Source: Pigoraptor vietnamica (taxonomy: Eukaryota > Opisthokonta > Filasterea). From it: a stretch of DNA of 40,000 bases. The position numbers were made by a program, and so were the translations under genes. How positions within the stretch are numbered: the stretch's first letter is position 1; the number at the start of each line of letters is the position of its first letter. Under the pieces are notes generated by a model. The model did not search any database. It saw only the letters and a list, made by a program, of their open reading frames with translations, and was not told the DNA's origin. Below, piece after piece: positions 886-21,526 of this stretch. The stretch covers positions 1-40,000 of the forward strand of contig CALSCQ010002637.1 in NCBI GenBank assembly GCA_943704525.1, read 5' to 3'.

Positions 886-3754
886 TCAGTCCTCGCGCAC
901 GTCCTCGCCGCCGGCTCCCACAGCGCCCTGTTCGGCTCCGGGCGGCGGGTCGCTGTCCGTCACGTGCCCGCACGCGCATGTCTTTGTCCATCGTCCGCCG
1001 CTGTCCACGCGCAGAGAAGTGGCGTCGTACGCGTGCTCATGGCCCGTGGACGGCCCCTCGAACCGCCGCAGCAACCGCGAGCGAATGACGAGCGCCTTCG
1101 TGAGCCGCGCCCAGCGCGCGACGACCTCGGCCTCCCGCTTCGCGCGCGCCCGCTCGACCCTCCCGGACTCTTCGTGCTGCCAGGCGTCTTCAAGCAGCTG
1201 CGCGTGTTCCTGTGCGACGACAATGCCGTCGTGGAGTGGGGTGGACCTTCCCGCGCGAAATTCAAACCCAACGAGAGCCGGCGCGTGATCAATGCCGAGA
1301 CGACGCGCAATGGACGCAATGTTGTGCTGCCGCAAGTGCGCTGCGCCGGGCGGCAACATGGACCGCTTGAACAGTTCGACGCTGCCGTGCGCATTCTTGG
1401 GGACGACGCCATCGACGACAGGGCGCGCAACATACGGCTCCGTCTGCCACTCGCCAAAGAGAAGGGACTCCCGCTGCGAGTCGTCGCCTACACGGTCGTC
1501 CACCGAACGCTGACGCGAAGGGACTACCTTGAACGGCACCTCGCCTTCCCTCACAACACGCGCCACTTTGGCCCACGCGTCTCGCGAGTGCAAGTCCCTC
1601 ACGTTCGCCCTCGGAAAAACGGGCTCCCCGCGGCAATGACCAAGCACGGGCTCCCGAGGGTATATCGCCTGGAACTTGTGCACGTGACGCTCGAGCGCGT
1701 ACAGCGGGTGTCCCTTGTAGTCCGCGAGCGCCGTTGGAAGTGCGCGCGCCATTTGCGATGCGTCCAATAGCGCATCCTCTGTGGCCGCGAGCTCCTCATC
1801 ACGCGGGCGCAGGGGAGCGAGCGTCGACCGCCACCACGCGCACCCAGTAAACGGGTCCTCTGCTGCCTTGGCGCCCACGTCCGACATGCGAAAGCGGCGC
1901 ACGCGGGAGGGTTCCGGCACATATCTCCGCGTGACGTCACGCACACAGCCGTCGCCATCGACCGCAAGCACGTGCGATATTGGCCGCACGGCGCCAGCAA
2001 CGCACGCGGCGGCATTGTCCATCTCGCCCGCGGGCATCGCCACCGGCAACCACCGCGCGTGCCCGTCGCTCTCGCACAGCACCTCCATCCACGCGGACGC
2101 CCACGGGTCCTCCGACTTGGGTGCCGCTTCCACGCCCTCGATGGTCTCTGCTACAACGCCCGAATCGGCCGGTTTGCTTCTCCGTCGAGCGCGCGCCTTT
2201 CCCTTCGCGTCACGTGCCTGGCTGCCCGCATCGATCTCGCCCGTCTTCGGCTGAGAACCGCCGTCGTCAGCTTCGCCCGCGAGCCCCGCGAGCATCTCTC
2301 TGAACGCGCGCGCATCCGCATCCTCCTCCTCCCCGTCCTCCTCCGTCCCTCCCATCTCAGCGCGCACACTTCCCGGTGGTCGCAAAGGCGATACGCGGGG
2401 CGATAAGACAAGACGCGCACGAAGGCCAAGTTCCCTCGCCGCCGCCACGCTCAGAAACACAAACCGCTCGTGCGACGTTGTGCCGCGCGCAATGTCCTCG
2501 CAAAGCACAGCCACGAGCGGGTGCGAGACATCGCTCGCAGTGCCCTCATCCTCCTTCCCCTTGCCTTTGTCCGCTTTTGTTGTCGCACCGACAACGGCAG
2601 TAGCCGCGTCGCTCTCTCTATCTCCAGCGGCCCACACGCCCGCCTTTAACGTATCGTCAACATTCGCAGCCCCGCGCACGGCCTCAATTGCGGCGCGCAC
2701 CAGCACGTCCGCGTCGGCGTTCCCTAGCCTTCGCTTGGCATCCTCCAGCGACAGCCGCGAGGACAGTCGTGCGCGAAGCGTGCGGTCTTTAAGCGCGCGG
2801 TTAATGGAGAGCAACGTTGCGATGAGGCACACGAGATGCGCCATATGCACGCTTGCGAAGGCCTCACGTCGCTGTCGACCGATTTCGCGGAGCTCTTCTT
2901 CGCGCGCGGTGCGTTCTCTGCGTGAAAGAGGCGTCGATGAGCGATCACAGTCCAACTTTCCATCCATGTAGTGCCTCGCAAACGGCAAGAGACAGCCACA
3001 CACACACACACACACTGCCACCGACATGTATGTGCACACGTGCGCGTGTCACCATCCACGCACCGGCTTTCAGTTCCCGAAATTCAAGAGAGACAGCCAG
3101 CAAAACGGCGCACAGCACACCAACGCACCTTGCGCGCTCCTTCTCGCTCTTGATCTCCACGCTGATGCGAATGTTTTCCGTCGGTGTCTTGGTTAATGGG
3201 GGCGCCTCGTGCGTGGCGGGCTCGTCACGCGCGCCTGTTTCGTTCAACGTCCAGGCATCCGTCACTGACGAGACACAATCCGCCATCCCGAACCGATTGA
3301 CTGTACTCACGCGTGCGCGCTGCACGAACACGCCACCAGTACCCAGGCTCATACAAGGCAAGCATCGCAAGCACGCACCTTGCACAACTTCCCACACAAT
3401 GTCGTCGTCAGATTCGTCCTCCACGCGTTCCGTGTGCGCCTCGGCAGGGACCTCGCCCACCGTCGGCGACTCCGTCGCTACAGCCGCATCCATCGACACG
3501 GCAGGGCCGGCATCTTCGCCAGAATCCCCTTTCCGCGCGCGCTTCGCTGGTCGTCCATCACCCTTGCTCGCACGTCCCCTGCGCTTTGTCGATGCAGCAG
3601 GCGCACTGGGACTGTTCTCAACGGCATTCGATGATCCTGCGTCTCCTGCCTGCGGTGTCACGCGCGGCCGACGCACGCGTGGCGCAGGCTCAAAGTCGCT
3701 GTCGTCGCTCAGCGCGGGCAAGGCCGCCGTTGCCGTTTTGCGGCGGCGACCCAT
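886..3754 (-). CDS. XPC: XPC/Rad4 DNA damage recognition protein
   Basis: Damage sensor of global-genome nucleotide excision repair; it opens distorted duplex DNA in the nucleus and recruits TFIIH. Exons: 3754-3379, 3234-3129 and 2917-886 (837 aa); phases 1 and 2 match across both introns. Intron 1 is open in frame, so retention is possible. The N-terminal 125 residues are basic and acidic, nuclear-type. A Rad4 transglutaminase-like fold follows (AFASVHMAHLVCLIATLL near residue 180). BHD1 starts at GHPLYALERHVHKF (about 560), with GEPVFPR and LHSRDAWAKVARVVREGEVP; BHD3 is near 670-745 (ELFKRSMLPPGAAHL, GFEFRAGRSTPLHDG). After it, RWARLTKALVIRSRLLRRF keeps the W-x2-L-x3-L centrin-binding pattern of human XPC. 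ATG 3754 was chosen because the codon upstream in frame is GTG. It is divergent from POP7. Confidence 0.93.
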
Positions 3755-5579: not shown

Positions 5580-5837
5580 GATGCGCTGTACAAAAGTCGG
5601 AAAATATGCGGAAAAAAAGTGCGCCAAACCGTGTTACGCTGCCAGTAACAGGAACCCCGGATGTGGACTCGTCAGCGTATATCGATTTGGATACTAAGCC
5701 AGGTTCGTAATGCAAATGGAGCAACCTTGTAATTTATATCCGGGGTATTTACCACGTGCCAAACGGCAGGTGCGCCCAAGTTGGTGAAAGGGAGTAGCAA
5801 GAGGTCCTTGTCGTTGTACATCGCCTTTTCCTCACGC

Positions 5838-8800
5838 ATGGCGTCCGCAGCCGCCCTGACTGCGGGCGCCTTCCGCGATGCCCTCGGGTCGTCTGACCCG
5901 AGCCGCATCCACTCGACGCTTTCCGCCGTGTGCGCGGCGCTGGAGGGGGCGGACGGTGGACGACGCGATGCGCTCCATTTCTACGACTCCCCGCCGGCCA
6001 CCGTCATTAGTAGCGCGCCGTATGCGCTGTTGTGCGAGTACTTTGGGGCGTCGCGCGACTGTGAGGACCTCTTTCAGGTGTGGGAGAGGCAGAAGGCGCA
6101 GTGGAAGTTCACGGGGCTTACCGAGTCGATCCTCGACACGCTGCGGTGGATTGTCACGGCATCAGGATGGGACCCGGCGGTGCGAAGCAACGGCATCTTT
6201 CTGGTGAAGAAGATCATGGCGCAGCATGCGCGCTCCCTCTATCAGAGCCTGTCGTCGGATCGCGCGCGCCCGGCGAAGGCCGCGCTGCGTCTGTTGGTGG
6301 CCATGGTGGGCCAGTCGGTCGCCAGCGCACGTGACGTGCAGCAGTCGTTCAATTTCGCATACAAACCGTTGGAGAAGCTGCCCACGCGCCGTGCGGCCGC
6401 GGGCGAGTCGCCTGGGGACGACGTGCGCACGCACTTTGTCGCGTTTGCGCTTTCGTTTCTGCGGTGGGAGGACAGCCACCTGACCAAGCAGGTGCTGGAG
6501 ATCAAGGGCTTCGTGCCGTCCGTCCTCCGCGGCCTGGGGGCGGACCCTCCCCACGTGGTGTCCGCTGTGCTTGACACGCTTTCGTCGCGCGTCGTCAAGA
6601 GCCATTCCGTGCAGAAGAAGGTCAAGATTGCGTTCTTCAACCCCTCGGTGCTCGATCTCATCGCGCGGCTGTACGAGCGGCCTCCGTCGGAGGGAGAGGG
6701 TGCCGCGGACGGCGATCCCCGCATGGACGCGCACGCGTTTCTGCTGGACCTCTGCTGCGGCGCGGACGCCTGGCTGTCGTTTCCGGATCCCAAGTGGACG
6801 GCCGCGCGGCAGCCCGTGACCGGCGGCGCGAAGGGCAAGACGCGCAACCCCACTCTCCTCCGATTCGCACAGTCGCTGGTGACGGCCAATGAGGACCTTC
6901 TCGTGCAAGAGCTCGTGCTGGCCATCCTCTCGCGCTGTCCGGACATTGCCCAGCCGTACGTCTCGTCCGTGACGCTGGCGCTTGAGCCGCGCCTCAGCTT
7001 TCGGTGGCTGGCGAACGCGAGCCTGCTCACAAAAATCCTCGGGCGAACGCCGCACCCGCCGTTCGTGGGCAAGGCGGCGCCGCGGTCCCCGGCTGCCGTC
7101 CTCGAGCACATTCTGCCGGCGGTCCTGACGCGCCAAGCGCTCACGCACGGACTGCAGCACGCCTCGCCACTCGTGCGGTACACGACGCTGGGTCTCCTTG
7201 TCGCGGTCTTTGCGCAGGCGGACGTCGTGCACGCCGATGCCGTCGCTGCGTCGCGCGATGCATCGCCAGCCCAGTCGCAGGGCTGGATGGCGTTCTTCAG
7301 GCAGCTCCGCGAGGGTCTCCGGCGGCGACTGCCCGATGTCCAGACTGTCCTTGCGAGGCGCCAGAACGACCAGCCCACCGACGTGGATGCGCCCGCGCAG
7401 CAACAGTTGTCGTACGCGCGCGTTCTCGCCGTCATTCGCGGTTACTTGAGACACGCACCGGAGGCTCTCATCGAGTCCCGCTTCGACTACGGCAAGCTCG
7501 TTCCGCCGCTGCCCGTCCTCCTATCTCTGTCGTCTCCCTCGCAACTGTTCCTCGCCGAAATTCTTGCCGGCGCGGCAGGGTTCAAATGGCAGGCGAAGGC
7601 CGTGACGTCGGACGCGGGCCAAGCGACGCGACTCTCGACGCACTTTGCGGTGCTCGTGTATCTGGGGCAAGCGACGCAGGCCGACGCCGTTCGCGGCGCC
7701 CTCCGCCGCTTTGCACTCAGCGCGCTCGCGGACACGGGCCTGTTTGACGGCGGCGCGTCCATGCGTGCGGAACTGCGGCTGTGGGTGGACGCGCTGTGGG
7801 CCAGCGAAGACGCGATCGCGTTCCTGGACGCGGCCATTGCGGCTGCCGTGAAGGACCCCTATCCCCACATTGACGCTGTCGCGGACGCATTCCGCCGCGC
7901 GAACGAGGCGCAACAGGACGCGGCACAGGCCCCACCTTGCAGTCCCCTCCTCGCCAGCGCGCTCACACTCGCCGCGAGTGATGCGGCGACGACCCGCGAC
8001 GCAAGGACGTATCTCCGGCGGGTCGTCGTGTCGGTCGCATCCACCTTTCCTCACACTCTACCCATCGAGCTGCTTGTGCAGAAGCTGTGCGGCGATGACC
8101 TTTCGCGCGCCCTCTGCCGTACGATTGCATCGTGGAGCACCGGGCTCTCTCAAACGCTTCCGGACGTGGACAAGGCCGCTGCAAAGCGACTGGCGACGGC
8201 CGATGCCGCCATTTCCCGCGCTTTGGCGGGTGATGCGGGCGGGGGGGAGGCTCTCGCTGAAGCCGTCTTGGATCTGCCGTGGCCTATTGTCATGCACCGC
8301 CTCGTTCCACTCTCCGCGGCGCTCGACGCGCATGCGAACGCGCGGTGTGCCTTTGTGCGCCGGCTTGCGTCTGTCGATTGCGCCTCCTCCCTCTTCGCCT
8401 CGGCCGATGCTCTGGGTGCGATTGGCGGCGTAGAAGCGGACGAGCACGCGCACCTCTGGCGACTTCTGAACGAACTTCCGTACGGCGTGGCGCTTTCCCA
8501 CTGCGCGTCGCGGCTCCTGTTGGCCCGTCCGCCGGTCCTTTCGTATCTCATGGGAGCGCTGCACCACCGCTGCGAATCGGTCGCTATGGCATTCTCGCAT
8601 ACACTCCTTCTGCTGAGTTCGGTCATTGAAAGCGGCACCGGGTCGGCGGATGACGCGATGGACGGTGCAGTCCGCAGCCTGTACGCTCTTCTGGCGGAGG
8701 CCCTCTCGATCTCCGCCGGTTCTGCCGACGCTTCTCCGGCGTCACTCATGCAACTGTACGCGTCGCACGCGGTCGTCGAACGCCACTTTTTCCCCGATGG

Positions 8801-11800
8801 GCCCATGGACGCAGTTTCCGTCCTTGTCACGTGCGGTTCGACACTGCTCGCGACCGAGTTTCAATCTGCTCACGCTCAAGCGCATGAGAACGATCCTGCG
8901 CTGTCCGTCGCCCTCGCGCCACTGCTGGCACGCGTTCAGGCGCGCATTTCCGCGGCCGTTTCGCGCTGCAGAGCTGCGGCTGATACGGGTAAGAAGGCGA
9001 AGAAGGACGCCGGTGCGCAGAGCGATCACGTAACGCGGCTTCTTGTGTCCCTCCTCGGCGTTTATCGTCCTTTGTTTGCGCCTGCGGACGCCAGCAGAAT
9101 CACGCTCGAGCTCCTTTCCCTGCCGTCGCCCGCGTTCGGCGCTGGAGCAACGGCGTGGTCGCTCCTTGTGCTTATGCTGACGCGCGGCGACAGGGACGCT
9201 TCCGCGTCGCTGGACCTGTCTCGGGAGGGGTTCGCGAAGCTCGCGACGCTGATGCGCGCCTGTCCGTCGGCGGCAATTGATTCCGTTGTTGTCGACATTC
9301 TTGCTGCGTCGACACGCCGGGGCGTTGTGGGAGCGACTGACTACGCCGCCGTCGTGGGCGCCGATCTCGTCTCGTTCTGCCTCTCGGATGGCGCAAATTC
9401 ACTGCGCGTGCAGGCCGCGGCCATCCTAGTACGGGCGTCGCCGCACGCACGTGCCGCCTTTGAGGACGTGCTTCTCCTGGACAGGAAGTCAGGCGATTCC
9501 AAGGCGCTGTTGGCGACACCCACTGCGTGCGTGGCCCTTGCGTCCGCATACCTCGAGTCGCTCGGTGTGTCGACGGATATCCAGAAGGATGGCGGCGTTA
9601 CGCGTTCTCTGTCGGCACATCAACGGAGTGTTGTGCGAGTCTTGGGCGATGCGCTTGTTTCCGTCCTCGTGGCGTCGCTGCTGCGGCCGTCGACAGCAAC
9701 GACGGCTGTCGAAGTGGGCGTGGCTGTGGGTCTCGTGCGTGCCGAACCTTCGTACGCGGTATCTCTCGTTTGTGCGCTTGTGGACAGCGCAAGGGCTTCC
9801 GCGGATTGGGCTGTGAGCGCATCTCGCGTCGCAGGATTTGCGGCGGCATTGGCGGTGCGCTCGGGAATGGACGGCGCCGACAGTGCTGCGAAGCTACTCA
9901 TCCCCGCGCTCCTCTCTTTCCTTGGCGGCCGCATGCGCGCAGACACCGACCATGATCTTGCAGAGGAGGCCGCTGTTGGCGCGTGCGAGTCCGTCCTCGC
10001 CGTAGTCTCGGGCGGCGTCTTGTGTTCGCGAGACGTGGAAGCGCAGGCCAAGCTCTTTGCGACCGCGGCGTGCCGATGGCGCCTCGATGCGGCACCCGTG
10101 CTCACGCTCGTGCGCCGCATTCTGTCAATGGAGGGCGCCTCTTGGGCGAAGGGGTTCGCGTCCGTGGCGCTCGACACGCTCACGGACGCCCGCGGGTTTG
10201 AGGACGCCCTTGTGCGCGAGGACAGCGCGCCCGTGGAAGACGTTCTCGACGACGGGGGTGATGACAACAATGACGACGTCCCCGCGGCGGCTGGGAGGCG
10301 GTCGCGGGACGGTCACGAGGCCTTGCCGTCGGCGAAGGAAGCGCTCGTCCACCTCCTCTCCACTCTGGCGTCGCTCTCCCCTTCGGACTGCTGCCGCGCG
10401 CACCTTGTGCCACTATTGATGAGCGCGTATGGCGCGTCGCTGTCGCGCTGCGACCGCCTGCTCCTCGGTTTGCTCAACGCGTACGAGGCCGCCGGCATTT
10501 CCGTTGGAAACGAGGCGTTCATGTTCGGAACGGCATCGTTGGAGCGTCGTCGCGAGCGCAAGGAGCTGTTCTCGACCGGCCGCGGACTCTCCCTTCGCGC
10601 CATTGCGCACGAGTTCCTCGAATCGGTGGACCCCGCGCGCATGGCGTTTACAGCGGAAAACCTCCCGCCGTCCGTCGAGATGAGCCCAACCGCTGACGTG
10701 AGCGCGGACGCTTCGGTCACGCGTGCGTGCTACGACCCCGCGTTCCTGCTGCCACTCGTGGCGCAGGTGGCGTCTGTGGAGGATCCGCCGGACTGTCGCC
10801 GCCTGCTGGAGTGCGACTGCCTCTCTGTCGTAATCGCATCGCTCGCCGTGCGGTCGGAGGCCGTGCGTGCTGCGGCATACGAGGCGCTTGGGCTGCTCTA
10901 CGCCCTCGTGGACTCTGCGCGCTTCCGGGAGAAGCCGCAGGTCTATCTCCTGCTCTCCGCGCTCAAAAACGGCATTACGGGAGAGAACGAGCGTGTGCCG
11001 GGCGTCGTCGCGGCCTTTGTGTGCAGCTGCGCGCGCATCCTCCTCCGCCCGGACCATTTTTTGTACGCGACGGTCAACAAGTTTGTGCTGCAGCGGCCCG
11101 CGCTCGACCTCCGCGATGTGCCGCTGTTCTTCGCGCTCTTCAACAGCGCGTCGGGCGGCGGCGCCCACCGCAAGGAGCGCGCGTGGATGCTGCGCCTGCT
11201 CCACGCTGGAATCCGCGATGGTTTCGACCGCCGCATATACACGCGGAGGCACGTGTTTGAGCTCCTTCTCAGCTTCCTCGATTCGCCGCTCTCGGCAGAC
11301 GGCGGCGCTCGCAAGGCGGGCGTGAGGGTGATCGAGCGCGCGTGTGGCATTCCGACCGTCGCCGAGGATCTCGTCCGCCGCCTGGGGCTTGTCCCGTGGT
11401 TTCACGCTGCGTGTGCGTCGGCGCACAAGCACGGCGAAGGGCTGTGGCGGTCGCTGCTCCCCGCGGCTGCCGTGCTCGTCCGCACCCTCGCGCGGTCCGG
11501 TGCGATGTACCTTCCGGAGGAGTTTGTCTGGATGGCGCGCGCGTCGATCGAGTGGCTTGCGACCATGCCATCCACGGATCCGGCGACCGTGTCGGCCGTC
11601 GTGGAGCTGGTGGCGGGTGTGATGGCCTTTGCGCACGCGCACGTGTCGGCGTCGTATGGCCCCGCGGCCACGCGCGCGTCGCTCTTTGCGGACGTCACGG
11701 TCGCTCATGTGGCGCAGCTCATAGCCCTCTGGCGGCGGTACCTCGCGGCGTCTCCCGAGGACGGTGCACACGTCGCTGTCGCCGGCGCCATCTTGGACAT

Positions 11801-12518
11801 CGCATCGTCAATTTGCGTGCGCGGCGTGCAGACTGGAGCCGCTGCGACGGACCAGCCCTTGGGCGCCTCGTTCGCTGTTATCGAATGGTGTGCCTCGACG
11901 CTGTGCATACACCACTCGCTCGGTGCGGGTCGCATCGCGTCCTTTGGTACGTGGTGTGCAGCCACCTTCGCGCGCGATCGGAGGCTATCTTCGTGGGTTG
12001 CCACCACAGGGATGTCGTCCCCGGCTGCGCGAGCGCTCTCATCACTGTACACGGCTGCTTCGCGCATCGACGGACCCGAGAAGTTTGCAGCTCTCTCGGC
12101 CATTAACTCGGTGCACATGGTGCTCGTGGCACGCGCGCGGGAGATTGCATCGATGTGCAAGGTGTCGCAAGCCGTTGCTGATGCCGCCGCTAGTACTCCC
12201 CTCGTGGCAGCCGTTGCGTCCGCAGGGTACGCAAGCGCACTCTCGACGTCGCCTGACGGTGCTGTGGTGCGTCTGCTTAGTCTCGCGCCGCACCCCTTCG
12301 ACGCGGGCGATGTGGAGAGTGACATTGAACCGTGCACGTGCGGTGCGTGCGGCGACTCGGTGAAGGCGGCTGCGGAGCTCGTGGCCCTGTTTGTGCGCGA
12401 GCTGTGGTCGGGGTCGCACGCCCCTGTCCGATTTGCGGAGTGTGTCGCTGCGGTGCGCGCGAGTGGCAAGGCCAGCGGGGCCCCCTTGTGCCTTGTCGGC
12501 TTGCTGTCCGATGTCTGA
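5838..12518 (+). CDS. URB1: URB1/Npa1 nucleolar pre-ribosomal-associated protein
   Basis: Large helical-repeat scaffold of early 60S assembly in the nucleolus; in yeast Npa1/Urb1 binds early 27S particles with other Npa factors. One uninterrupted exon of 2226 aa (yeast 1764, human 2271). The first ATG in frame is 5838 (MASAAALTAGAF). The Npa1 N-terminal domain lies at about 60-330: VRSNGIFLVKKIM, LRLLVAMVGQS, LSFLRWEDSHLTKQVLEIKG and KKVKIAFFNPSVLDLIARLY. The C-terminal NopRA1-type domain is at about 1630-1840: CYDPAFLLPLVAQ, FREKPQVYLLLSALKNGI and KERAWMLRLLHAGIRDG. Between them are Ala/Leu-rich alpha-solenoid repeats. An acidic low-complexity patch (DDGGDDNNDD) lies near 1475. Odd point: 6.7 kb without an intron beside genes with 11 to 17 exons. 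Confidence 0.92.
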   Translation: MASAAALTAGAFRDALGSSDPSRIHSTLSAVCAALEGADGGRRDALHFYDSPPATVISSAPYALLCEYFGASRDCEDLFQVWERQKAQWKFTGLTESILDTLRWIVTASGWDPAVRSNGIFLVKKIMAQHARSLYQSLSSDRARPAKAALRLLVAMVGQSVASARDVQQSFNFAYKPLEKLPTRRAAAGESPGDDVRTHFVAFALSFLRWEDSHLTKQVLEIKGFVPSVLRGLGADPPHVVSAVLDTLSSRVVKSHSVQKKVKIAFFNPSVLDLIARLYERPPSEGEGAADGDPRMDAHAFLLDLCCGADAWLSFPDPKWTAARQPVTGGAKGKTRNPTLLRFAQSLVTANEDLLVQELVLAILSRCPDIAQPYVSSVTLALEPRLSFRWLANASLLTKILGRTPHPPFVGKAAPRSPAAVLEHILPAVLTRQALTHGLQHASPLVRYTTLGLLVAVFAQADVVHADAVAASRDASPAQSQGWMAFFRQLREGLRRRLPDVQTVLARRQNDQPTDVDAPAQQQLSYARVLAVIRGYLRHAPEALIESRFDYGKLVPPLPVLLSLSSPSQLFLAEILAGAAGFKWQAKAVTSDAGQATRLSTHFAVLVYLGQATQADAVRGALRRFALSALADTGLFDGGASMRAELRLWVDALWASEDAIAFLDAAIAAAVKDPYPHIDAVADAFRRANEAQQDAAQAPPCSPLLASALTLAASDAATTRDARTYLRRVVVSVASTFPHTLPIELLVQKLCGDDLSRALCRTIASWSTGLSQTLPDVDKAAAKRLATADAAISRALAGDAGGGEALAEAVLDLPWPIVMHRLVPLSAALDAHANARCAFVRRLASVDCASSLFASADALGAIGGVEADEHAHLWRLLNELPYGVALSHCASRLLLARPPVLSYLMGALHHRCESVAMAFSHTLLLLSSVIESGTGSADDAMDGAVRSLYALLAEALSISAGSADASPASLMQLYASHAVVERHFFPDGPMDAVSVLVTCGSTLLATEFQSAHAQAHENDPALSVALAPLLARVQARISAAVSRCRAAADTGKKAKKDAGAQSDHVTRLLVSLLGVYRPLFAPADASRITLELLSLPSPAFGAGATAWSLLVLMLTRGDRDASASLDLSREGFAKLATLMRACPSAAIDSVVVDILAASTRRGVVGATDYAAVVGADLVSFCLSDGANSLRVQAAAILVRASPHARAAFEDVLLLDRKSGDSKALLATPTACVALASAYLESLGVSTDIQKDGGVTRSLSAHQRSVVRVLGDALVSVLVASLLRPSTATTAVEVGVAVGLVRAEPSYAVSLVCALVDSARASADWAVSASRVAGFAAALAVRSGMDGADSAAKLLIPALLSFLGGRMRADTDHDLAEEAAVGACESVLAVVSGGVLCSRDVEAQAKLFATAACRWRLDAAPVLTLVRRILSMEGASWAKGFASVALDTLTDARGFEDALVREDSAPVEDVLDDGGDDNNDDVPAAAGRRSRDGHEALPSAKEALVHLLSTLASLSPSDCCRAHLVPLLMSAYGASLSRCDRLLLGLLNAYEAAGISVGNEAFMFGTASLERRRERKELFSTGRGLSLRAIAHEFLESVDPARMAFTAENLPPSVEMSPTADVSADASVTRACYDPAFLLPLVAQVASVEDPPDCRRLLECDCLSVVIASLAVRSEAVRAAAYEALGLLYALVDSARFREKPQVYLLLSALKNGITGENERVPGVVAAFVCSCARILLRPDHFLYATVNKFVLQRPALDLRDVPLFFALFNSASGGGAHRKERAWMLRLLHAGIRDGFDRRIYTRRHVFELLLSFLDSPLSADGGARKAGVRVIERACGIPTVAEDLVRRLGLVPWFHAACASAHKHGEGLWRSLLPAAAVLVRTLARSGAMYLPEEFVWMARASIEWLATMPSTDPATVSAVVELVAGVMAFAHAHVSASYGPAATRASLFADVTVAHVAQLIALWRRYLAASPEDGAHVAVAGAILDIASSICVRGVQTGAAATDQPLGASFAVIEWCASTLCIHHSLGAGRIASFGTWCAATFARDRRLSSWVATTGMSSPAARALSSLYTAASRIDGPEKFAALSAINSVHMVLVARAREIASMCKVSQAVADAAASTPLVAAVASAGYASALSTSPDGAVVRLLSLAPHPFDAGDVESDIEPCTCGACGDSVKAAAELVALFVRELWSGSHAPVRFAECVAAVRASGKASGAPLCLVGLLSDV

Positions 12519-12668
12519 GCCCGATTATGAAACGAGCTGTTCATTTACACGCAATCGAGAGACAGAATAATGTGCCCGCTGTAACAAATGCGCACGCACG
12601 CACGCACGCACGCACGCAACAGAACGCAATAGCATCACGACAGCATGGCGATACGGCAAGCGCATGCC
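12519..12668. other. Convergent 3' spacer with CGCA microsatellite
   Basis: 150 bp between the URB1 and tectonic stop codons, with a (CGCA)n run at 12591-12618. Both polyadenylation sites must lie in or near it. Confidence 0.5.
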
Positions 12669-15600
12669 TCAGAACGGCGTTGGGGCAATCTTGACCAGCA
12701 CGGCCATGGCCACCAGGAACAAGAACCACAGCCCAAACGCCACGTCACGTGAGTGCAGGTAAAGGTCGGGGTCGTAGTCCCTGCTGAAGGGGTAGAAGAT
12801 CGCCTCGTTGTCCGTAAAGTTGTTCAGCACGTTGCGGAAGGCGTCCGAGAGCACCGGCGCACGGCGTCGCGCCACGGGCGCGTCCAGCTCCAGCGCCATC
12901 AGCGTGAGATTGCCCGTGACGTTCACATAGGACACGAGGGACGTGAGCGGCACACGGAGCGTTCCATTCGCCACGTCGCACGGGCCGCGTTCGGCCGTCG
13001 CGCAATCAAACACCAGCGTGTCGAAGACAAAACCCATGCGCACGCCCTGCACGGCAGTCTCCGGCGCCTGCGCAGTCCCCACAAGCCCTGCCACCACGCG
13101 CATCGACAGCGCCACGGGGACGTTGGCACACCGATCCACGCCGTCCGTGGCACCGCTCAGAGAGTAGTTGGCCAGGATGACGGGCACCCACGACACGGGT
13201 TCCGAGGGGAACGAGCTGCCCCACCGCGCCACCCTGTTACCCACGGAAAACGCCGTGAGCGCCGCCGCGGCGCGCGCGCGCAACGCATCGCAGTCGGAGA
13301 ACTCGGCGCGTGAGAAGAGGAGATCGCACGACGTCGTCTGGTCGACCCCAAAGAGAGGCGTCCACGGCGCACCGCCGCACAGTCCGGACGCATCCGCACC
13401 CGCAAACGAGATCGGCAACGAAGTGTTGACGGCGGAAGCGCCTGCCGCATAATGGCCCGTGCGGAGGGGCTTTCCGAGAACGTACCCGCGGTGTCCAGAC
13501 ACGGGGATGGGGCTCAGCGCGGGGTCGACGAGATTGAGAAAGTCGACGGCGAACGACTGCGACACGGCCGTCGCGCCGCCGCCTCCCGGCATCGCGACAA
13601 CGCCAAGCACAATCTCCGTCACGATCCCCAGCACGCGCGATCCCTCCCAATACACAGTGTACGCCACCCCCTTTGCGGCATTCGCGCACGTCCCGGCGGT
13701 CGCGTTGAACACGGGCACGGGCCACCGGAGGGTCGGCGACGCAAAATAGCCAGACGTGAAATTCGCGCACTCGCCCTCTTCCTCGCACGCGAACGCGACG
13801 TAGTTGGCGACAGCCGATGCCACACCCACGGTGCCGTCGCTCACGGCGAGAAAGGACGCGTGGCGCTGCGCATCGTACGCGCCGCCGAGTGCGCAATCCG
13901 CGGCAAACGACGACGGGTTGCGCAGGCAAGACGCCTGAAAGGGCGACAGGTACTCCGCCGGCACCGAGTCACGACACGGCCCGGCGCCGCCAGTGAGGGA
14001 CGGCACGGGCACCCGCAGGGTCGATAGGGCAAAGGTGCCGTTCGTCGAGGGCACGGCGACGAGGAGCTGCACGCCCGACGCGTAACTTCTCAGGGGCGGC
14101 GCTTGCGACTGGAGAGAGACGAGAAGGGGATTTCCGCCGCGCGCGAGATCGTCCGCCGCCGCGTAGAGAGAGAAGACGGCAGGGTCCGTCACAATGCCCG
14201 GGTTGGGCCAGAAGATGCCCATGGATGGATTGCGGTCCACGGCGACGCACGTGAAGGGGCTCCAGTTCTCCGTCGTGAGCGAAGGGGGCGCGTCGCAGCG
14301 GTACGCAAACGGGGCAAAGGGGGGCGTCCAGCACGAAGAGAAGGCTTGGTTCAGCGTCGAGTAAGGAGAGAAGCACAGTGCGTCACAGCAGCAGTTGGCA
14401 TCGCACGCGCCCTCCGTCAGATCGCACCCGCAGAATGCGTCGTTCACGATGGGAAGGAAGAACGACGGCCCCGTCGCGACGACGGCGGCCCACGACACTG
14501 GCAGCGTGCGCACAAGCACAATCTCGACTGTCATCGACGCGTGCAGCAGCGCAAAATTCGACCCGTTATCCTCCGCAATGCACACCACGAGCACCTTCGC
14601 ACCTGCGCTCGTCGCGTTCGTCGACGTCACCTTCAGCACCTGGTCCACAGTAGTGGCGTCGTCGTCGCTGCCGGAATCAATGGGGAACGTAACGACGGCC
14701 GGCGAAACCACCGCGGCGCTGCTGTTGCCCAAGTGCCCGTCGACGACCTCGCAGCGGAAAACGGCGTCTGCGAAGGCCACTTGACCCACGAGGGAGAGAA
14801 CGGCGGGCGCGCTTGCACCCGGCGGACCAAATACGACCTGGTGCTCGGGCAAGAGGCGCGCTTCCGCAGGCGCAGTCCCAATGGCCACGCGCACGCCAGA
14901 CGACGTGGCCGTGAGGTACTGGCGGCCGCCGTTCTGCGACTGCGCGGTGCACGCGGCTGTGGCGGAGCGCCCGGCGGACGCGATGCGGAAGGGCACGGCG
15001 GAAATCGATTCGTTGAGGGGAACAACGACAGACTCGAACACAACAACGGCGCGCGAGGGGTCGCCGGAAGACACGACTGCGCACGTGACGTCGACGGGAT
15101 TGTCGGCCACAGCCTCGGAGAGGACGATGGGCAGGTCGTACACGGCCGATGCGTTGAACGGCACGCGAATGAATCCGCCCACAGCGTCCACAACGGGCGC
15201 CGGCAGCACGCTCACGATGACGCCGGTCCCTCCCGAGGTGGAGAGGAGGTATTGGGGCGTTCCGGTCGCATTGGACGACGCCGCGTGGCACACGACGTTC
15301 GCTGGGAGCCCCGACTGCGACACGCGAAACGGAACAACGGCCGAGGTCGCGTTCTCGCGTACGACGACCTCATCGAATGCGAGCTGCGCCGTGAGCGGGG
15401 ACGTCCCATTGCACACGACGGTGGCGTTGGTGCCGGTCGCTACCGCCGCGCTAAGGGTGACCGACACGGAGAGGCCCGCGGCGTTCTGCGCAACGGTGAC
15501 CGCCGCGGGTCCGGACACGTCCACGTGGGCGGCTTCCGAGACGGCGACGCTGAAGGCGGCCGAGGGAGAGGTCGCCGCGCGAAACTGCGGTGTAATTCCG

Positions 15601-17386
15601 CCGCCGATAGAGTTGGCAGAACAGGCGACCGACACATTCGCAGGGACGTTGGCGGCGGTGACGGCAAACGGCACCAGCGCAAACGCATCGCCCGCGTCAA
15701 CGGTCACCGCAACAAACGAGAGCGGCGATGACTCCGCGAGAGGAAAGCACGTGACCAACGTCGTCGACTCGGCGGCCTCCGGCAGAGTGACGTTCACTGC
15801 GTTGCCGGCGGCATTGGGGTTGAAAACGGCGGTGGGCACAATGGCCGACACGCGCGGGACGGCACTGAGCGAGATCTCGGTCCCATTGCCGCGCGATGTG
15901 CCAAAACGGTACTGCCTGTACGCGCCCTCTGCCGCAATCGACTCCGCCTCGCACGCGACGGCCACGGGGCCCCCGAGCGAAGCGATCGTGTAGTTGACGA
16001 CGGCCGTTGTGCGGCCAGCGGCGATAGTGACGACCGCGAGATCCACGCCGGCGGAGGGCGCCCCATCGTCGTCGTCCACCGGAGAGGCGACGCACCGCAC
16101 GACCGCAGGGTTCGTCGTGTCAGCGTCCAGCGCCAGCGACAGAGTGAGAGAGAGATCATTTGGACTGACGGTACGCTCGGTGGGCCCCAACACATACACG
16201 CGGCGCGAATCAAACGGCAGTGTCACCGTCGCAGCGGACGTCGCCGCGCGAAACTGCCGCCGCCCATTCGCGCTGGTGGCGTTGGACACGGCCGTGCACG
16301 TGACCGCGGGTGTGCCTGGCATCGGCAGCTCCACGACCGTGTAGGCGACACCCTGCGGACACGAGCGGTCGCCCGCAGCCACCGCGCAGCCCACAAACCG
16401 CATCGAATAGCCCGCCGCGGCACTTGCCGGCGCGAGTGCGCACGTAACGTTGGTGAGTCCCGCGGCCGCCTCGGAGAGGGTGACCTGCAGCGCCATGCCG
16501 GCGTCACTCGGATCGAGCGGCGCAGACGGCGTCTGTACGGACACGGTCGCGAACGGGGAGAAGGTAACATTGACCGTATTGGCGGGCGTATAGTCCGGCG
16601 ACGCCAGCGATGCGTTGGCAGACGCGCCGCGGCATCCAACCTGAGCCCACGCGAGCACCGGCCTCGAGATCACCTGGAAACCGACCCGCGTCGTCCCCAC
16701 GCCCGTCGCACTGACGACCGCAAACGCAAAGGGGGAGGGCCCATTGGACGGCGATGCATTCACGACGGCGCACGTGACGTTCAGCGCAACGGCACCCGCA
16801 GGACCGCCAGTTGTGTTCGTGATGGACACGACGAGAAACAGAGTGGCGGCGTTGGGGTCGATGGCGAGAGAAGAAGTGTTCGCAATGCGCACAAGGCCCA
16901 CAGGCGGGATGGGCGTTGCGGATGGCGACGGCGACGGTGACACGGACGACGCCGTTAGCGAGCTCGAACTCGACACATCATTAGGCGAGAGAGAGGACGG
17001 CGCCACTGAAGAAGCGTTGGAAGATGCATTTGTCGCAGAGGGGGCGGTCGCTATCGAGGACACCGGAGTGGCAGTCGCGAGCGCCGGCGACTGAGAGAGA
17101 GCGACAGACGAGACTGAAGTGGAGGCCGTCGCAATGGAAGGCGACTGCGAAAGTGTGACAGACGCACTGGGCACCGCCGATGTGGTCGACGCAAGAGGCG
17201 ACGACGACTGTCGAGTTGAAGGAACGTAAGCAATTGCGCCCAACACACCGCATATGCAAGCACGCACGCACTCACCGTCACCGCTGACGATGTCACACTC
17301 GCAGCGTGCACTGGCGCGGACAGAAGGAGAGCAGCGAGAATAAAGGCCGCTGCGGTCCTCGCGGTGACCCACACAACGTGCGCCAT
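12669..17386 (-). CDS. TCTN: Tectonic-family ciliary protein with seven N-terminal tandem repeats
   Basis: Tectonics are secreted or membrane proteins of the ciliary transition zone (MKS/B9 complex) that control entry of membrane proteins into cilia. Two exons: 17386-17276, phase 0, then 17207-12669; 1549 aa. Exon 1 encodes a signal peptide (MAHVVWVTARTAAAFILAALL, cleavage probably after VHA). Residues 38-130 are Ser/Thr/Pro-rich, mucin-like. About 130-930 holds seven beta-rich units of about 105 residues with many NxS/T sites. The tectonic domain runs from about 940: CGCDLTEGACDANCCCDALC (about 958-977), then YVLGKPLRTGHY, PLFGVDQTTSC and many paired Cys. A C-terminal transmembrane helix (VAFGLWFLFLVAMAVLVKI) ends the protein. 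Animal tectonics have roughly 590-700 aa and lack the repeat block. Implies a ciliated organism. Confidence 0.88.
14480..16890 (-). repeat. Seven degenerate ~315 bp repeats coding tectonic ectodomain units
   Basis: In the tectonic gene, about 800 residues fall into seven units. Each has a start such as (V/P)xAVxxNAAGxxVxVTLSEA, a (V/T)xVxC strand, a VxFxxVxVxxGxxxAxVPFxV strand, VxCxAxSxN and QYxxATS. Units 4, 5 and 6 are clearest (VNVTLPEAAESTTLVTC, VSVTLSAAVATGTNATVVC, PIVLSEAVADNPVDVTC). The pattern of two conserved Cys about 55 residues apart suggests a disulphide-linked beta-sandwich, Ig-like or Calx-beta-like. Fold assignment is inference. Confidence 0.7.
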
Positions 17387-18041: not shown

Positions 18042-18874
18042 ATGGCGAAGCCGATGCCCCTCATTACGTACGACGAGCACATGAAGGATGGAGGCTCGTT
18101 CGTTCTCCACGAGACCGCGTGCGCCGAAATCGCAAAGATTAAGGAGCCCATCTATGTGCGTGCACGCGACGCTGTGTGTTCCTCGTGCACCGTCTGTTGC
18201 GGAGTGTTGGAATCGCGCAAAAAGCAAACCGTGTTGTAGTTTGAAGGCACTCAGGCGCCGCGGTGGCTCAACTTTTGTGCTGCTGCAGGTCGTCGCTGTC
18301 GCTGGCCTCTATCGCACGGGAAAGAGCTTTCTGCTGAACCAGCTCGCATCAAAGACGAACGGCTTCGACATTGGCTCCAGCGTCGGTGCGTCCGAGTTTG
18401 CTAATGAGAGAAGTTGCCGTCGTTTTGCTCTCGTGAGTCCTCACATCCCCTTGCTGTTCTCCCCCGCCAGAGCCATGCACGCAGGGCATATGGATGTGGA
18501 TCGTGGACGCCAACCAGGACGGCACCGACCCGGCGCTGTCGTCGTCCACGAGCAAGCGGTTCAAGCTGCTCTTGCTCGACACAGAGGTCCGTGTGTGCCC
18601 GTGGGCGTATGTGCGTGTGTGCGTAGATGCGGAGAGGGAGAGAAGTGATATAAGAGAGGGCGCTTTTGTGCGCAAGTGAGCGTAAGTTGAGCTGTAGTGT
18701 TGCGTGCTTGCAGGGTCTTGGGTCGTACACGAAGAACGAGACGTACGACGTGCAGATCTTTTCACTCGCGCTGCTCTTGAGCTCCATGTTCTGCTACAAC
18801 AGCCTTGGAAGCATCGACGAGACAGCTCTCGACCGCCTCTCATATCCCATCACCGACCGATTGCCCTTGCGCAC

Positions 18875-18916
<42 letters not shown>

Positions 18917-21526
18917 CCCTCGCGCACTTGCACACGCACGCACACGACACAATGGCCTCTCCCTGTTTGTTCACTCGTTCTCTCTCGTGCCCTCCCTTCT
19001 TCGCTTTCACCTTAACCGCTCCGCTGTGCCGTCCCCACGCTTGTCGTTGAGCTGTCGAAGCATATCCAGGCGAACCTCGACACGGCGTCGCAGCAGGACC
19101 CTTACCAGCTCAAGGCGTTCTTTCCCGCCTTCATGTGGGTCGTCCGCGACTTTTCGCTCGAGCTCAACATTGGCGGGAAGCAGGTGTCCGCGCGCGAATA
19201 CCTCGAGAACGCGCTCCTCCCGGCGAAGGTGCTCCTCGACTGGCTGTGTTGTTCAAGCAAGTCTTACCATTTCCACACGTGTAGCAACGTCCTACTGTTT
19301 GCAATGTTGCATCGCCCGTGTTGCGGCGCTCACGCACGCACGCACGCACACGCACGCACTCACTCACGCACTCACGCATTCGTCGCAGGGTGAAGGCCAG
19401 CGTGTGGTGATGAAGAACAACATTCGCAAGGCGATCACCGAGTTCTTCCCTGACCGCGACTGCTTCACCATTAAGCGGCCGGTGGCGACCGAGGAGCAGC
19501 TGCAGAACCTCGCGAAAATGGACCCGCGCGACTTCCGCCCGGAATTCCTCAAGCAAATGCTCGAGCTCAAGGCGACGATCCTCGGGAGGGTCAAGCCCAA
19601 GACGCTCTACGGCGAGAAGCTCACCGGGCCCAGTGGGTGTCGCGACCCTGTTGTGCTGTCGTGCGCGCTAGTGGCTGCATCTGTGTTATGTTGCGGTGCG
19701 TACGAGTGTGGTCGTCAAGTCGAGTGACGATATATGTTGCGGTGCGTGCGAGTGTGGGCGTCAAGTCGAGTGACGACATGTGCGTTCTGTTATTTGTGTT
19801 AGGTGGCTGTTTGATAGTGATAGGCTGACCTTACGTTCCCTGTTATGCACGCAGTGCTTGTCGAACTTGCGCGCAGTTACGTTGAGGCGATCAACGAGGG
19901 CGCCGTTCCGACCATTCGTACGGCGTGGGAGAACGTCGTCCAGATGCAGTGCCAGAAGGCGGTCGACACGGCCAAGCAGCTCTACACGAAGCGGTGAGCA
20001 ACCGGCACGCTATGTAACTCTCACTCACTATGCGACGCGCGTGTGCGGATGCGTTTGTTATCGGTCCTTGTGGATTTGCATCCTTCTCGCTATGCGTGTG
20101 CGTACAAGTGAAGCGCACTGTGGGCCATTTGCACAGCCGCGTGCTGAGCATGCCCTCCATCCCCCAGCATGGCGACGCTAATTGAGGAGGAGGAAATCCC
20201 GGAGGCCGATTCGCTCGAGGAGGCGCACAACGAGGCGTCGTGGGAGGCGTACCTGCTCTTCCGCCACGCGGCCGTCGGAGAGACAGTGGACGACTACGAG
20301 CTTATACTCCGGGTGGGTGCGGGTGTCGAAGATTGTGTTTTGGGTGTCCTTCATGTTTGATTCACTTGTGCCACTTGAATGGAAGCCCAGTTGCATTGTC
20401 TCCACTGAGACACTTCTTGCTGTCTGTGGGCTCTGCCACTCATTCTCGCCCACGTCCGTGTTGCGCAGCAATTCATTGTGACGAGCCACGAAAAATTCCG
20501 CGAGGAGAACCGCAAGAACAGCGAGCGCGAGTGCGACCGCCTGCTCCACGGCCTCGTCAAGGACATTGGGGAGCTCATGGCGGCCGGGCAGATAACGACC
20601 GTCGAGCAGCTGGAGGAGAAGTGGGACGCGGTGATCGACAAGTTCCAGCGGGTGGCGCGGGGGCCGGCAAAGCACCAGGTGCTGCAGTCGTACATTGCAA
20701 AGAAGCCGCTCGAAAACGCGCGCAAGGTGGCGTCTGGGCTCGTCGCGAACGTGAAGGACTCGTACGAGAAGCGGCTGAAGGAGGAGGGCGAGCGGGCGAA
20801 GCAGCAGTATGGCACAATGCAGGAGATGTTCAACAACGTCAACACGGAGTGGAAGCAGGCGCGCGAGTCGAACTCGGCGCTTGCGAGGGACAACAAGAAC
20901 CTCGAGGACCAGGTGCGTGCGGCGCCCTGTTGTCGCGTGCATGCTGCGTGTCCCAGCCGTCGTTGGCGATTTTGCTTGGTTTTTTTTTTTAAAAAAAATC
21001 CTTTGTCGTCCTAGTATCTGTGTGGTGACCGTCGCTCGTTCGTTTGCGTGTTGCGCAGATCAAGAAGCTGGAGAAGAACGAGCGCGATCTCAGCGAGAAG
21101 GTGATTCAGCTGGAGGCGACGCTCAAGGCGGAGCGGATGAACACGCAGACGAAGACCGAGGAGAACGAGGTGAGTGTTTGCGTGCGTGCATGCGTGTGTG
21201 TGCCTGTGTGTCCCGACAATCCCTGGTGTGCCCGTTGCAACCTGTGTGTGTGTGTGTGCCTGTCGATTTGTCGCTGTAGCCCTCATTTCCTGTTTTGGCC
21301 GTGCTGAGTGTGGACAGCACCGAAGTTATTATGCCCCTGTTTGAGTGTGAAGCGCACACACTGAGTTATTTTCCACTTTGCCCTGCAGCGGCTGAAGAAG
21401 GCGCTAGCGGAGGTCGAGAAGACGGCGCACCACTTGAAGGACAACGTGGTGACAAAGAAGCGCGACAAGGAGGCTATCGACCAGGCCATCAACAACCAGA
21501 AGAAGAAGAACTGCATCGTCATGTGA
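18042..21526 (+). CDS. Guanylate-binding protein (GBP/atlastin-like) GTPase with CaaX box
   Basis: Dynamin-superfamily GTPase acting on membranes; in vertebrates GBPs act in cell-autonomous defence, in other lineages roles are mostly unknown. Eleven exons: 18042-18155, 18289-18385, 18471-18586, 18714-18841, 19039-19228, 19389-19632, 19855-19993, 20168-20312, 20469-20912, 21059-21169 and 21389-21526; 621 aa. G domain: P-loop GLYRTGKS (44-51), PCTQGIWMW switch region, LLLDTEGLGS (G3, 103-112), SIDETALDRLS and base-recognition VRD (187-189). Then the long helical domain: LENALLPAK, LTGPMLVELARSYVEAINEGAVPTI, and coiled coil from exon 9 on. The tail KKKNCIVM is a polybasic CaaX box, so farnesylation and membrane anchoring are likely. 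Intron 4 is of AT-AC type. Length and order match human GBPs (about 590 aa). Confidence 0.92.
18842..19038 (+). other. Putative U12-type AT-AC intron of the GBP gene
   Basis: No GT donor exists between the conserved ETALDRLS codons and the CA repeat. Splicing ATATCC (donor at 18842) to CCCCAC (acceptor ending 19038), phase 2, restores the family sequence DRLS-LVVELSKHI without gain or loss. A U12-like branch element CACCTTAAC sits at 19008-19016, about 23 bases before the acceptor. The intron carries a (CA)n run at 18877-18911. Confidence 0.75.
18877..18911. repeat. CA microsatellite
   Basis: A 35-base CA dinucleotide run inside GBP intron 4, followed by a degenerate CA/CG-rich stretch to about 18952. 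Confidence 0.95.

Follow-up and report, generated by a model that had tools for sequence, protein, structure and literature searches.

The window analysed here is the whole of a 40,000-nucleotide stretch (positions 1–40,000 of contig CALSCQ010002637.1, assembly GCA_943704525.1) from the filasterean Pigoraptor vietnamica. One gene on its minus strand, at 17386–12669, encodes a giant tectonic whose spliced translation is 1549 residues long; the start codon (ATG) at 17386 and the stop codon at 12669–12671 are its exact bounds. The product consists, in order, of a signal peptide, a Ser/Thr/Pro-rich stretch, 795 residues of repeats, a tectonic core, and a C-terminal hydrophobic segment (Table 1). 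The hydrophobic segments at the two protein ends are seen by hydropathy only, and the signal peptide is likely cleaved after ...APVHA, as judged by eye. Tectonics are proteins of the ciliary gate, and this one is a real tectonic with an immunoglobulin (Ig)-like extension, a new form of a known family.

Table 1. Features of the giant tectonic gene, with positions in the window.
Feature	Position	Strand	Evidence
Exon 1: ATG and signal peptide	17276..17386	-	spliced translation; hydrophobic segment 4-32
Predicted intron, 68 nt, GTGAGT...ACAG (GT-AG)	17208..17275	-	nearest frame-keeping acceptor
Mucin-like Ser/Thr/Pro-rich stretch, residues 38-140	16899..17207	-	60% S+T+P
Repeat R1, residues 141-250	16569..16898	-	16.1 bits, 0/2000 decoys as high, best decoy 14.2
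Repeat R2, residues 251-366	16221..16568	-	37.0 bits, 0/2000 decoys
Repeat R3, residues 367-481	15876..16220	-	54.2 bits, 0/2000 decoys
Repeat R4, residues 482-593	15540..15875	-	44.6 bits, 0/2000 decoys
Repeat R5, residues 594-703	15210..15539	-	54.7 bits, 0/2000 decoys
Repeat R6, residues 704-813	14880..15209	-	44.1 bits, 0/2000 decoys; modelled Ig-like beta-sandwich
R7, probable degenerate repeat, residues 814-935	14514..14879	-	both cysteines align (A2, A4); 1.9 bits
Tectonic core, residues 938-1549, TLPVSW segment to C terminus	12672..14507	-	paralogue pairwise match and Pfam
DUF1619_N match with Cys motif CGCDLTEGACDANCCCD	14316..14438	-	PF25752 E 3.3e-6
TCTN_DUF1619 best match	13026..13496	-	PF07773 E 4.7e-11 (whole protein); 1.4e-5 in six-frame search
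Hydrophobic C terminus with a probable membrane helix inside residues 1524-1549	12672..12749	-	Kyte-Doolittle maximum 2.47

The identification as a tectonic is nearly certain. Both family models exceed their curated cut-off of 22 bits, TCTN_DUF1619 (PF07773) with 43.8 bits and DUF1619_N (PF25752) with 28 bits over profile positions 24–62 of 120, and a Pfam search of 1512 residues at E up to 10 returned nothing beyond these two. The same two models, together with the Cys motif, the signal peptide, and the C-terminal hydrophobic segment, characterize the family members TCTN1-3, from which the protein differs by ∼795 additional residues of tandem Ig-like domains. The core accounts for ∼40% of the protein, so that the first-pass annotation of this DNA was correct in recognizing a tectonic but not in assigning it the C-terminal half. 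Chlamydomonas TCTN1, by comparison, has 679 residues against 1549 here, with DUF1619 at 78–418 and 77 residues ahead of it (PMC12723291, PMC9271036). The DUF1619 domain has no functional annotation, according to PMC12723291.

The repeat array spans residues 141–935, at ∼113 residues per domain. Each unit was scored with a leave-one-out profile against 2000 shuffled decoys. R1–R6 beat all decoys, R1 by a narrow margin, while R7 falls short of this test and retains the spacing and the two cysteines. The seven repeats proposed in the first pass therefore stand, on sequence grounds, as six supported units and one probable one. The seven units have their first cysteines at residues 183, 293, 409, 524, 636, 746, and 856, spaced by 110, 116, 115, 112, 110, and 110 residues. 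Alignments A2 and A4 show both cysteines as invariant in all seven units, whereas A1 and A3 do so for the second alone, the aligner having shifted the first in some rows. A two-repeat alignment (A5) and the R7-plus-Cys alignment (A3) were set aside for their poor register. Identity among the repeats is 12–37%. The pair R4-R5 matches R2-R3 with 37% identity across 218 residues, which suggests that a two-domain unit was duplicated in the history of the array. No two units share an identical stretch of DNA beyond 18 bases, the length of the longest such run, so the repeat duplications are old. N-glycosylation sequons number 21 in residues 141–935, compared with 6.7 in shuffles (0/2000 as high). 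The mucin-like stretch and the ∼800 residues of tandem, N-glycosylatable, beta-rich repeats described in the first pass are thus all present.

No convincing name for the repeat emerged from three family libraries. Neither Ig, fn3, cadherin, nor Calx-beta families were among the listed Pfam, NCBIfam, and PHROGs matches of the seven repeats; the best matches had E-values of 0.18 in Pfam and 0.088 in NCBIfam (E up to 10), and 0.018 in PHROGs (E up to 1; a tail protein, matched by one of the seven repeats). A profile search of the PDB gave weak matches only, to antibody, filamin, and ICAM-1 chains (best E 0.53), and self-BLAST of the repeat block returned the full self-match only. Single-protein six-frame searches of the organism's own genome, which diverged copies could escape, found no further repeat copies with either the 795-residue block (4 candidates scored) or R4-R5 (11 scored), both leading to this gene only. 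The prokaryote and viral collections contained no relative of the giant tectonic; these are not eukaryote collections and are uninformative on protists. Among the titles and abstract openings listed from an open-access library, none dealt with a tectonic bearing repeats, Ig-like or otherwise, which does not prove that print lacks one.

The fold of the repeat was modelled by AlphaFold2 on R6 (residues 703–818), with its sister repeats as the alignment. The R6 model is a beta-sandwich with a mean predicted local distance difference test (pLDDT) score of 90.8 and a predicted template modelling (pTM) score of 0.83, and it is similar in fold to solved Ig-like sandwiches. The repeat is thus, as modelled for R6, an Ig-like beta-sandwich. 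A disulfide between strands C and F, instead of B and F, was considered from the strand order and dropped. The nearest solved folds are the luminal domain of cystinosin and Calx-beta domains. The cystinosin domain (8dkw, 8dke, 8dyp) has 12% identity to the repeat and is a single domain in a transporter, and the common fold indicates no function. The Calx-beta domains (NCX1 CBD1, integrin beta4; Foldseek E about 5e-4 to 2.5e-3) are likewise beta-sandwiches, but with a template modelling (TM) score of only about 0.5, and the repeat differs from them in its conserved cysteine pair. When the repeats were checked by eye for the Calx-beta Ca2+ loop, acidic clusters were seen in R3 and R7 only. A viral fold library gave 5 matches to R6 with E≤0.001, the best (1.0e-4, 25% identity) being to an unnamed 1010-residue viral protein.

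The genome searched (32.5 Mb, 1395 contigs) contains two loci for each tectonic Pfam model, the giant gene and a second tectonic at about 27179–29860 of contig C993. The latter is found as two pieces, each matching one tectonic Pfam model. A stop-free frame runs from Met 27179 to CLCDLTLNSCDANCCCD, with 166 residues from the Met to the Cys motif; it has a hydrophobic signal-like start, followed by a stretch with 53% Ser+Thr+Pro that directly joins the conserved core. The second tectonic resembles the giant one in its signal peptide, S/T-rich stretch, CLCDLTLNSCDANCCCD, DUF1619, and C-terminal hydrophobic segment. It differs in lacking the repeats, and frame changes in its core sequence imply introns. 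Similarity between the two proteins begins just before TLPIVWP/TLPVSWA, at about residue 938 and right after R7 (the pairwise match starts at residue 896 of P0001, with TLP at 901), and nothing in the C993 protein corresponds to R7. As the signal-like start, the S/T-rich stretch, and the core are common to both genes, the repeat block, judged by this comparison, lies exactly between two shared parts. Its absence from the C993 protein, and the mere 77 residues preceding DUF1619 in Chlamydomonas TCTN1 (PMC12723291, PMC9271036), support the first-pass view that such repeats are foreign to ordinary tectonics.

According to a survey of transition-zone proteins, a single TCTN family member is nearly ubiquitous (PMC4092220); this genome has two. 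Matches to Meckelin (PF09773; 9 matches, contig C792) and to B9-C2 (PF07162; 9 matches, contigs C33, C681, and C654) indicate that transition-zone genes of the Meckel syndrome (MKS) module are present.

The repeats and the core of the giant tectonic lie in a single 1512-codon exon, with no stop and no donor-like GTRAGT inside, and the window contains 0 undetermined bases. A codon-usage score was trained on the neighbouring 2226-codon gene and applied to segments of 150 codons. The coding frame had the top score in 10/10 segments (Ser-rich part, 0.16 bits per codon; others, 0.23–0.39), and the values on the two sides of the repeat-core border (0.38 and 0.26) showed no clear step. The other two same-strand frames were negative throughout, and one antisense frame reached slightly positive values, at most 0.16, in several segments. 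Since the score favours the coding frame, the long antisense frames look like by-products of high G+C. One intron separates the signal-peptide exon from all the rest, as the first pass had it; two acceptors further downstream likewise keep the frame and would give 1528 or 1510 residues. The added suggestion that this intron eased domain shuffling did not hold up: it cuts off the signal peptide only, the repeats and core share one exon without GTRAGT, and the C993 gene stays open in one frame between signal peptide and Cys motif, so that no shuffled repeat-core border is marked. The single exon contrasts with the several match pieces of the second tectonic and Meckelin, which suggest introns there. 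Intron loss or retroposition in the past of the giant gene is possible.

Several other genes surround the tectonic gene. A Rad4/XPC-like DNA repair protein is encoded on the minus strand at 886–3048 (four Rad4 Pfam domains, best E 1.5e-24). A 2261-codon open frame on the plus strand, 5733–12518 (Npa1 E 4.9e-63, NopRA1 E 4.2e-56), presumably encodes a URB1-type 60S biogenesis factor. This gene is convergent with the tectonic gene, and the gap of 150 bases between them holds a GCAC simple repeat (12590–12618). On the plus strand at 18654–19727 lies a guanylate-binding-protein (GBP)-like GTPase (GBP E 5e-19), and a frame just upstream of it (18085–18648) contains a P-loop-like stretch, as seen by eye. 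Elsewhere in the genome, G000:C1236:3747-3762 is what we take to be an exact copy of a universal small-subunit ribosomal RNA primer site; the 3016-base locus around it had no Rfam match at gathering scores, and this approach turned up no SSU rRNA.

The reading that we favour, with a probability of roughly 0.4, is a tectonic with an extracellular N terminus lengthened by tandem Ig-like beta-sandwiches; these would form a glycosylated stalk, with the mucin-like stretch at its tip. The core would dock the giant tectonic in the transition-zone MKS module like other tectonics, and the array would stand on this anchor, raising the N terminus above the transition-zone membrane by some tens of nanometres. 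An Ig-like domain is about 4 nm long, and seven of them would give the stalk a reach of some 25–30 nm. The stalk would hold a glycan-rich head off the membrane at the ciliary base, thickening the local glycocalyx. This head may either screen lateral passage or touch a neighbouring membrane. Ordinary gate work would be left to the short paralogue. The stalk reading draws on reports that Tectonic-1 is an extracellular, glycosylated protein (PMC10500017), that the ciliary glycocalyx is largely disrupted in Chlamydomonas tctn1 (PMC9271036), and that Chlamydomonas TCTN1 truncations do not rescue, the loss of either end reducing transition-zone localisation (PMC12723291). It is a doubtful further step that the tectonic anchors in the membrane a mucin-tipped rod of Ig-like domains, which would form an outer collar round the flagellar base, with part of the ciliary gate acting outside the membrane.

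Several observations weigh against the stalk. R7 scores only 1.9 bits in its leave-one-out test, with 392/2000 decoys as high. The structure prediction of the repeat region that the first pass had proposed gave a confident model for R6 only; that of R7 (pLDDT 56.2) is not usable. Residues 699–717 at the R5-R6 border form a third hydrophobic segment (1.88) over the same hydropathy threshold; we take it as part of the R6 sandwich, because it lies mostly inside the R6 model, where no helix is predicted. The core also is enriched in sequons (10 in residues 936–1520, compared with 3.5 in shuffles; 1/2000 as high), so that the enrichment is common to repeats and core and not peculiar to the repeats. 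In mouse rods, the loss of Tctn1 leaves the ciliary necklace and the wheat germ agglutinin (WGA) glycoprotein staining intact (PMC10500017).

It is unlikely that the array is an insertion of minor functional importance that a duplicated, drifting copy has tolerated. The repeat-free second tectonic could cover the core function, and the repeats have diverged to 12–37% identity; however, drift would not be expected to preserve two cysteines in all seven units (A2), the enrichment of sequons, or an open frame and coding signal over 795 residues. We consider it quite unlikely that the array is an adhesive link from the ciliary base to an adjoining membrane, such as the flagellar pocket wall or the cell body. 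The analogy, a functional one only, would be with ADGRV1, whose ectodomain carries many tandem Calx-beta repeats, and with the Usher syndrome type 2 (USH2) complex of ADGRV1 and usherin, which links periciliary and connecting-cilium membranes near the ciliary base (PMC10296736). The R6 model has Calx-beta domains among its closest solved folds, but none of the seven repeats has a Calx-beta Pfam match at E up to 10. A misreading of two genes, or of an assembly join, as one is highly improbable: the repeats and core are dissimilar, but they share an unbroken exon in a window without undetermined bases, codon usage is alike across the border, and the upstream part alone has no stop of its own.

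Little is known of what tectonics do at the outside of the ciliary base. Here a natural tectonic with a large modular ectodomain, the proposed glycosylated stalk, coexists with a plain one, and comparing the two could show what the outer part adds to the gate. The giant protein also suggests that a tectonic can accommodate a long repetitive addition to its ectodomain and perhaps put it to use.
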